Shown in pieces: positions 58,401 to 61,210 of a stretch of DNA of 64,000 bases. The stretch's first letter is position 1, and every line of letters begins with the position of its first letter. Both the position numbers and the translations under genes were made by a program. The notes beneath the pieces are model-generated. The model was not told where the DNA came from, did not search any database, and worked only from the letters and a program-made list of their open reading frames with translations. Source of the stretch: Branchiostoma floridae (taxonomy: Eukaryota; Chordata; Leptocardii; Amphioxiformes; Branchiostomatidae); contig NC_049987.1 in NCBI RefSeq assembly GCF_000003815.2, positions 19,490,024 to 19,554,023 of the forward strand, in the 5' to 3' direction.

Positions 58401-60559
58401 AGTTGATTTCCAACATTCTTTATAACCTGAATCATGTCTAAGATACAGTGTTTATTCTACTCTAGGGAAGACTTGAGTAAACTGCCCTTCATCACCATGT
58501 GCATTAAGGAAAGCCTGAGGATCAGGCCCCCAGTTCCAAACATTTCCCGAAGTCTCACCAAAACGCTGACTTTCCCGGACGGGAAAACCTTGCCCGAAGG
58601 TAAACAAAAGGCTTCAAGAAATTAGCCCTTAGCTTGACATGATAATGTTTCTTGGTGTTACTATCTACCGGAGTGTACTATGCCCAAGATATGATTGTGA
58701 CGTATAGTTCTAAATGCTTTTCAAACTCTCATCGAAGTCATGATTCTACCGCAGTAGTTGATACAAATTTGGTTTTGCATGAATGTTTAATTTTTTATCA
58801 GTTATGTGCATCTTTCTGTTACTGCCTGTAATTTCTTAGATTAACAGGATACGTTGTCTTAAGTTAGTGTATTTGTCAGTGAATTTATATTTTACTTTTA
58901 ATGTCTTCTTTATATTTTCCATTTCTTCTTTTATTATATTTTCCAATGTAGGATCACTTGTAACTGGAAGGATCATAGTCACACATCACAACCACCTGAT
59001 CTGGCAAGACCCTGAGGTAAGCTGCTGCTGAGTCAGCATCACGCAGAGACAAAACATTAGGCAGCTACTAGTATATAAAATTGACTGTTAGAAACTTCAT
59101 TTCATTAAAAAATTATATGTCGCTTACTTTGAGGGTTGTTTATATTGACGTAAGTACGTGCAATTTGTCCGTACGTTTTTTTTACAGGCTGCCTTGTCCG
59201 GGGGGTGGGGGGTCGGGCGATCCGCAGCCCGATGGCACACAAAGTTTTGCCTGTACATAAAGTTCTACGGCGTTTCTGCGTGCTACAAAATCAGTCAGAT
59301 TCCCTATGAGTTCATACAGAGGCGGTGCTTACCACTTACGGATCCGTAGCAAGTAGACAGCACGTATTTGCACGTATGGCGGGTTGTGCCCTTTTACCCT
59401 ATTTCATCATGGCTTAATGAAAGGATGATTTTGCCAGTCATAATAAATCTCTTTACAAGAAAAGATTTGCACATAACTATGTGATGATTTTGAGCCCTCG
59501 ATTTCCGAAAATTTAAAAAGAAATCTTTTTCACAGATGCTCCATTGACAAAGTAATGGTGTAATTGTAATGGTTTGAATATTGACATTATTCTACCCTGA
59601 AAACACCTTTCCTTGACTTTTACGTTTTGATGTCTTATATCATTAATTTTACATCTGGGAATGATTTTATGCTTATCAGGTTCACTTGATAAATCGCCGA
59701 TTAACAAAGCCATTATAATACGAAAAATCCATGTTTTTTACCAGTCATCATTTCTCATCTGGCCATATCTACTGGTTCTACTACACACTGCAGCTAGGTG
59801 TAACTATAATTTGTACACTTTTCAGGTCTATGATCCCCTGCGCTTTTCTCCGGAAAGGTCCAAAGACAGACATCACCATGCTTTTGTCCCCTTCTCTGCT
59901 GGACCGAGGTAACGCATTAATTTTAAAATTTTAGTATCCTTGTGTAATTGAAAAATTTGATATAAAGGTCACATTTTCGACGAAAATGAAGGATATCTCC
60001 AGGGGAAACTAAGAACAATTGTAAGAGAGAAATAAGAAAGCGTACTGTCTTGCATGCGTTTCTATAGGAAACATCACAGTACTACCTTTAATCGCTGCAT
60101 CTAATATTTTCTTTTCTCTTTTTGATAATAACAATAAGACAGGGTTAAAGAAGAATCAATGTTGTTTTTAGATTTTTTTGGTACTTCTTCCAATATAAAT
60201 ATACCCAATACAAAGGTTACTCAAGCTTAAGTAACTGGAATTTTTTAAATAAATTTTGACAAAACTTATCCAGTAGTATGAGTTTTGTATCGATTATCTC
60301 ATTATATGGCTATCTAACTTTTATAAATTCATCAGTAATGGTAAACGAGCTATTGAGTTTGTTCTCTGTTCTCTGTTTTCACCTTAGGAACTGCATTGGC
60401 CAGAATTTCGCCATGAACGAGATGAAAGTGGCGGTGGCGCTGATCCTCCAGCGTTTCCGCCTGGAGCTGGACGAGACCAAACCTTCGCCGTTCTTCCTGC
60501 AGCAGCTCATCCTACGGGCAAAGGATGGGATCTGGATCAAACTTACACCCAATAACTGA
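52416..60559 (+). CDS. CYP4F-like cytochrome P450, complete, 12 exons, 521 aa
   Basis: Exons: 52416-52634, 53181-53331, 53914-53955, 54328-54455, 55108-55229, 56591-56707, 57115-57256, 57905-58095, 58466-58599, 58952-59016, 59826-59908, 60388-60559; all GT-AG and in phase. Landmarks: hydrophobic anchor at about residues 23-47, PPKHW hinge, FEGHDTT with E329 (CYP4 heme-linking glutamate) and T333/T334 in helix I, ExxR at 386-389, PERS near 446 and FSAGPRNCIG with heme cysteine C467. Closest remembered family is CYP4F (omega-hydroxylation of fatty acids, eicosanoids and vitamins E/K), ER membrane. The ATG follows a GCTGCAG acceptor shared with the inverted paralogue; a longer upstream open frame from 52134 crosses that acceptor and is not favoured. 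Intron 5 holds two LINE fragments in opposite orientation. TGA at 60557-60559 is inside the first minisatellite unit. Confidence 0.96.
55580..56106 (-). mobile_element. LINE C-terminal fragment with 3' tail, in P450 intron 5
   Basis: The minus-strand frame 55786-56106 reads [20 protein letters not shown] then [13 protein letters not shown], the same CxxC...EDExHxxxxC motif as at 49350-49440, followed on the minus strand by an AT-rich 3' UTR and a tail ending near GTGCAATTAAG at about 55590. 5'-truncated. Confidence 0.78.
56107..56575 (+). mobile_element. Second LINE C-terminal fragment, opposite orientation, in P450 intron 5
   Basis: Plus-strand frame: [19 protein letters not shown] then [20 protein letters not shown], ending with a stop near 56438 and a TTTTGCAATAAAACTTG tail about 56551-56567. 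A different family from the 55580-56106 fragment but the same domain type. Head-to-head with it at about 56107. Confidence 0.75.
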
Positions 60560-61210
60560 AGGGATCTGGATCAAACTTACACCTAATAACTGAAGGGATC
60601 TGGGTCAAACTTACACCCAATAACTGACAGGATCTGGGTCAAAATTACACCCAATAACTGATGGGATCTGGGTCAAACTTACACCCAATAACTGAAGGGA
60701 TCTGGATCAAACTTACACCCAATAACTGACAGGATCTGGGTCAAAATAACACCTAATAACTGAAGGTATCTGGATCAAACTTACACCTAATAACTGAAGG
60801 AACTGGGTCAAACTTACTCCCAATAACTGAAGGGATCTGGGTCAAACTTACTCCCAATAACTGACAGGATCTGGGTCAAACTTACACTTAATAACTGAAG
60901 GGATCTGGGTCAAATCATATTCCCAGTAACTGGGGAATATGGATCCAGCTTACAACCAATAACTATGTGGACATGAACCTTGCTTTCACCCAATAAGGGA
61001 TCTAAATCTAGCTAGCGTTCAGCCAACGTATTATGAATCTGGATCTACAATGTAACTTGCAGTCAACAGGATCCCGATCAAACTTACAATAAGAAATGTT
61101 GGTCGTGCATCCAGTAACTAAAGCGATCTGATGTTTGCTTACACCCAATGAATTACGGTGATAAATAAAGAGGTCTGGATCAAACTTACAGTTACACCCA
61201 AGAACTAGAG
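60524..61210 (+). repeat. 34-bp minisatellite starting in the P450 stop codon unit
   Basis: About 12-13 clear units GGGATCTGGATCAAACTTAC + ACCCAATAACTGAA to about 60950, then degenerate units to about 61210. The first unit is the coding sequence of the last 11 codons ([10 protein letters not shown] and stop). Units vary at a few positions (ATC/GTC, CCC/CCT, GAA/GAC). Confidence 0.95.

Follow-up and report, generated by a model that had tools for sequence, protein, structure and literature searches.

Minisatellite arrays beginning inside the terminal exons of CYP4-type cytochrome P450 genes of a lancelet

The window, i.e., the whole stretch of 64,000 nucleotides of Branchiostoma floridae DNA that was analysed, carries two cytochrome P450 genes, gene B on the forward strand and gene A in the inverted orientation (Table 1). 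Each of them consists of 12 open exon blocks, and splice sites of the GT/AG type, judged by eye, are located at or near the block ends. The joined exon peptides of gene B were aligned with CYP4B1 over query residues 41-524 (E 6.6e-142; 1.1e-45 for the next best chain), and the gene looks complete. This full-length similarity to a CYP4 enzyme places gene B in cytochrome P450 family 4. The haem-binding motif of cytochrome P450 is FxxGxRxCxG, and the segment FSAGPRNCIG, which fits it, spans exons 11 and 12 in both genes. A third gene, gene C, has the same 12 blocks on the forward strand, and its first exon lies about 4 kb past the tail of array B, just outside the window.

Table 1. Features of the two P450 loci in the window (window coordinates)
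Feature	Position	Strand	Evidence
P450 gene B, 12 exon blocks	52416-60559	+	exon blocks, splice sites, CYP4B1 match
Terminal exon (exon 12) of gene B, ending in founder codons and TGA (60557-60559)	60389-60559	+	tblastn blocks, translation, Pfam p450 PF00067 (E 1.9e-10), CYP4B1 alignment
Founder unit of array B, including one base after the stop	60527-60560	+	sequence, unit list
Array B, 34-bp units 3' of the stop	60561-60964	+	TRF, unit list
Decayed distal tail of array B	60965-61206	+	nhmmer
AATAAA, possible poly(A) signal, in array B tail	61164-61169	+	string search
P450 gene A in inverted orientation, 12 exon blocks ending in TAA (29090-29088)	29088-35246	-	exon blocks, splice sites by eye
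Founder unit of array A, TTA replacing TGA	29117-29150	-	unit list, translation
Extended C-terminus of gene A reaching into unit 2, then TAA	29088-29120	-	translation of assembly
Remainder of array A; AATAAA in last unit, first base 28656	28648-29116	-	TRF, unit list, string search
Decayed array remnant upstream of gene A	36103-36220	-	nhmmer, 22.2 and 17.9 bits vs control maximum 9.0

Several other features were observed in and near the window. Open frames with a reverse transcriptase domain (PF00078) are present between both P450 genes, at 42332-44248 (-) and 49735-50601 (+), and an open frame of 409 residues at 40377-41603 (+) gave a major facilitator match (PF07690, E 4.3e-9). Two identical 231-bp copies (24304-24534 and 24952-25182), possibly an assembly artefact, flank an N gap at 24844-24943. 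Intron 8 of genes A and C contains a fragment similar to exon 9 that may be the relic of an exon copy (window 30946-30911, minus strand; C9:19561711-19561800, plus strand); the fragment of gene C is longer and 53% identical, and the list of the DNA-level search at E 0.01 does not include such a fragment. Between exons 6 and 7, genes A and C also have a second minisatellite, whose units measure about 31-35 bp (window 31815-32046 and C9:19560655-19560803), and TRF listed none at this place in gene B.

Genes A, B, and C carry arrays of a 34-bp unit at their 3' ends. In gene B, TRF delimited the array to 60527-60964 (12.9 copies), and its first unit comprises the last ten codons of the terminal exon, starting with the GGG codon at 60527, together with the TGA; the initial annotation had placed the beginning of the array inside this exon, and TRF and translation agree on it. 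Decayed copies of the unit, detected by nhmmer, continue past the array to about 61206 (21.3, 17.4, and 17.4 bits, with a best control score of 9.0 across 20 Markov-1 windows). Array A (28648-29150, 34 bp, 15.0 copies) starts in the homologous terminal exon of the inverted gene A, as was expected from the mirror-image arrangement proposed earlier; the mirror image is, however, inexact, since the in-exon unit of gene A has TTA at 29120-29118 in place of the TGA found in gene B. According to the translation, the frame of gene A enters unit 2, gains ten residues and ends at a TAA. The TGA was retained in 25 of the 28 listed units of arrays A and B, and read-through, which enters frame 3, would likewise meet a stop in 25 of 28. 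Each unit thus offers a TGA in the gene frame and, in most cases, another stop in the read-through frame, so that losing the true stop costs only about ten extra residues. The earlier claim that the first stop alone keeps the array out of the protein is not supported, because gene A lost its TGA and the array itself stops the frame ten residues further on. Gene C retains the TGA, and its array was found by TRF at C9:19565251-19566437 (34.9 copies). The AATAAA strings at 28656, in the last unit of array A, and at 61164, in the tail of array B, suggest that the array belongs to the 3' UTR.

The direction of the relationship between array and coding sequence can be read from the wider genome. A search of 513 Mb (431 contigs) with the 34-bp array, in which the best candidates were scored, gave eight matches, i.e., array B, array A in two pieces, array C in four overlapping pieces and one decayed remnant. 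Among these best-scoring candidates the unit was thus confined to genes A, B, and C and to a remnant near gene A, and the dispersal away from P450 genes that the initial annotation regarded as contradicting its proposal was not encountered. The exact pattern of the 34-bp unit occurred in no stretch of the viral contigs. When the same 513-Mb genome was searched with the terminal-exon peptide, 21 places were obtained, all of them CYP4-type terminal exons by sequence. The 34-bp array accompanies three (A, B, and C), and the remaining 18, e.g., L014 and L015, have the homologous C-terminal end without it; in 16 of these 18 the sequence within 1.5 kb downstream that comes closest to the coding end of the same gene shows 14-17 mismatches of 33. 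The presence of the homologous end in 18 paralogs that have no 34-bp array shows that the coding end came before the array. Moreover, the CYP4B1 alignment extends through the founder codons of gene B (DGIWIKLTP vs NGIHLYLKP). The array-free paralog ends, the CYP4B1 alignment across the same codons and the confinement of the unit to P450 genes and one remnant all support the proposal that the coding 3' end founded the array, and it is the comparison with the paralogs that shows the origin of the minisatellite from the end of a CYP4-type coding sequence. The related expectation that the in-gene unit would be the least diverged from the family consensus was borne out in part: the founder of array B is close to the consensus (1 difference), but unit B6 is closer (0 differences).

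The age of the array relative to the gene duplication was approached through the remnant and through the silent divergence of genes A and B. The remnant was matched in the genome search at 36103-36191 on the minus strand (E 2.1e-6), about 0.9 kb upstream of gene A and adjoining a block common to genes A and C that begins at 36092; no terminal exon was recognised beside it. The 12-mer CTAAATCTAGCT, with an expected count of 0.013 in the window, is common to the remnant and the distal tail of array B, and further on, with the order kept, so is ATGAATCTGGATC. The best overall alignment of the remnant is with the array core (score 90, vs 55 for the tail of array B), where the best of 500 shuffles reached 41 for the core and 36 for the tail. 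We infer that the remnant may be the tail of an array that once preceded the gene ancestral to A and C, as the tail of array B now precedes gene C, which suggests that the array is older than gene A. Genes A and B differ at 36 of 214 fourfold sites over 12 exons, very unevenly; a permutation over all 12 exons, which is the fair test here given that the exon groups compared by Fisher tests were picked post hoc, matched this heterogeneity in 11 of 20,000 cases. Exon 12, with 1 of 24 fourfold sites different, is among the least diverged. The simplest cause of the uneven silent divergence is apparently gene conversion between the two genes; strong constraint on some exons is another. As the silent sites of exon 12 look exchanged, the presence of an array in both A and B alone is no proof of its pre-duplication age. 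The claim that the array predates the duplication therefore stays plausible through the remnant but is weakened by the apparent conversion, which includes exon 12. Units differ by 5.46 on average within arrays and by 5.85 between them (permutation p 0.023), and arrays A and B both contain a type of unit that lacks one base (A3, A7, and B9).

Arrays over the stop codon are not restricted to the 34-bp unit. Two other CYP4-type genes, L027 (C15:2845927-2846091, minus strand) and L029 (C15:2608108-2608272, plus strand), have an 81-bp array of 3.0 and 6.7 copies, respectively, which begins inside the terminal exon and whose unit takes in 25 codons and the TAA. The genome search with this array returned L027, L029 and a single copy at C1:20941452-20941522, the exon end of the array-free paralog L021. 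In the terminal-exon tree, of whose 18 inner branches only one reaches the tool's star, the 34-bp and 81-bp groups stand on opposite sides (92/88). Because the unit length and the amount of coding sequence differ and the groups are opposite in this tree, the two arrays appear to have independent origins. Arrays seeded at the stop were thus found in 5 genes among 39 P450 terminal exons, with two apparent origins. In the 18 usable terminal exons of other P450s, TRF reported no array over the stop. This control sample covered about 2 kb at each 3' end of 20 of the 118 PF00067 matches (19 among the strongest and one terminal exon); a regular expression located the terminal exon in 19 of the 20 (not in L042), and L037 was without flank, leaving the 18, which amount to fewer than 18 independent cases, as several look like close copies of each other. 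Arrays with a period of 20-200 and at least 2.5 copies occupy 837 of 80,548 bases in the window and flank, with the focal arrays excluded, and 750 of 50,366 bases at 16 CYP4-type loci. At a background of 1.5%, the chance of at least two hits among 18 CYP4-type lineages is about 0.03, a post hoc value obtained by hand arithmetic that is only suggestive. Two further observations were made at these loci. Another CYP4-type gene, L016, has tandem arrays several hundred bases behind the stop and not over it, and 3' of the 81-bp array of L027 an N gap lies between inverted copies of one short sequence, possibly an assembly artefact.

The distance of units to the founder increases along array B (rho 0.87, 19 units) and along array C (rho 0.63, 41 units, with a founder window that begins one base late), where the first 34 downstream units differ from the founder by at most 5 changes and the last 7 by 11-15. 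In array A the gradient was not significant (rho 0.41, p 0.15; rho 0.14 and 0.04 in another analysis). For arrays B and C, two of the three, this pattern is what renewal near the gene would produce if the exon were a protected master copy; alternatively, the gradients could result from homogenisation from which the far edge is exempt, as in the lancelet globin arrays discussed below.

The founding of the array would have started with a short tandem duplication of the final ten codons together with the stop codon and the base after it. The stop would be kept in the upstream copy and the new copy would lie behind the reading frame, so that the protein would presumably stay unchanged. Slippage or unequal exchange may then have added further copies while units were homogenised locally, as the unit patterns suggest. 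Genes A, B, and C would have obtained the array by inheritance or exchange, and a separate event of the same kind would have given rise to the 81-bp array on the two other CYP4-type genes. This whole account, from founding by a coding end through growth and inheritance or exchange to a separate 81-bp event, is regarded as very probable. A microhomology model of the first duplication (34 bp, GATGGGATC to AACT, junction TGATGGGATC) is compatible with junction B4/B5 and with the first one in array C; it was left unused, most other junctions of arrays A and B reading differently. A more far-reaching idea, offered tentatively and with more doubt than confidence, is that lancelet genomes have repeatedly founded minisatellites at stop codons, that the last exon serves as a selection-maintained master re-seeding the near end, and that the array forms a set of pre-terminated C-terminal extensions, switchable by one stop-loss mutation, as in gene A.

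The opposite polarity, in which the P450 gene end captured a pre-existing satellite and the last codons are satellite-derived, could draw on the decayed remnant upstream of gene A, which has no recognised terminal exon at its side. However, the homologous C-terminal residues are present in CYP4B1 and in the 18 paralogs without the 34-bp array, and the remnant itself adjoins the block common with gene C and has derived motifs in common with the tail of array B. The capture was disfavoured on the grounds of the array-free paralogs and the genome search, and is considered highly improbable. A further possibility is that the extra units are alternative C-terminal coding sequence, into which the frame of gene A does run by entering unit 2; yet changes per codon position among 21 non-founder 34-bp units numbered 31, 14, and 22 (five units of 32 and 33 bp being left out of the count), without the third-position excess, and five units of array A have an in-frame TAG, making this the least credible of the readings considered.

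The array might also be a selected functional element of the 3' UTR, such as a poly(A) site or an RNA structure, and not a neutral by-product. The AATAAA in the last unit of A and the tail of B agrees with it, and the folding of the array RNA is slightly better than that of shuffled sequences (z -1.77, with 5 of 100 shuffles as good), but this folding signal is weak, the distal units are decayed and no array covers the stop in 16 other CYP4-type genes. Between 28000 and 62000 of the window no Rfam match reached the gathering score. Such a function for the array is unlikely. Slightly lower still is the likelihood that errors of assembly account in part for the copy number or for the stop loss of gene A: tandem arrays are difficult to assemble and the window has six N gaps, one of them near array A (28413-28512), but the units are mutually different, arrays A, B, and C differ, and around the A1/A2 junction several bases differ, not the stop alone.

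Founding by the coding end, the preferred reading, gives these arrays a particular value. Many minisatellites have no known ancestral sequence. The ancestor of the P450 arrays is fixed by protein homology and, in what appear to be two independent cases, still exists as a single copy in sister genes; an array can therefore be traced from a known starting point through its birth and growth to its decay. A coding minisatellite is also represented by the zinc-finger array of Prdm9, which resembles the P450 arrays in being a tandem array that includes coding sequence. Its copies are, however, translated, whereas in the P450 arrays only the first copy is, plus ten frame-shifted residues in gene A. 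The closest relatives are the lancelet "mirages", tandem copies of exon-intron boundaries that are described for Adh3, the globins BflGb6 and BflGb9, and troponin C, with similar repeats in PGBD5, and with units of 10-72 bp in Adh3 and 150-160 bp in the globins (PMC3087553, PMC3902484). The globin mirages undergo concerted evolution that spares the array edges (PMC3087553). Both kinds of array consist of minisatellite-like tandem copies that straddle a gene boundary and include coding sequence, and their unit lengths overlap. The homogenised core with excluded edges has its counterpart in arrays B and C, whose distal ends are decayed, although array A is without a significant gradient. In the literature searched, to which most subscription papers did not belong, no report of mirages at stop codons was found. 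The mirages straddle an exon-intron boundary with its splice sites, whereas the P450 arrays straddle the stop codon and the 3' flank, and their first copy sets the end of the protein. Since a stop codon and not a splice boundary is spanned, the P450 arrays are called a variant and not a member of the mirages; with these as prior art, arrays seeded at a stop codon look like a new variant. With them, the mirage type of array in lancelets reaches beyond splice boundaries to the stop codon, and gene A provides one case of a lost stop caught by the array itself.
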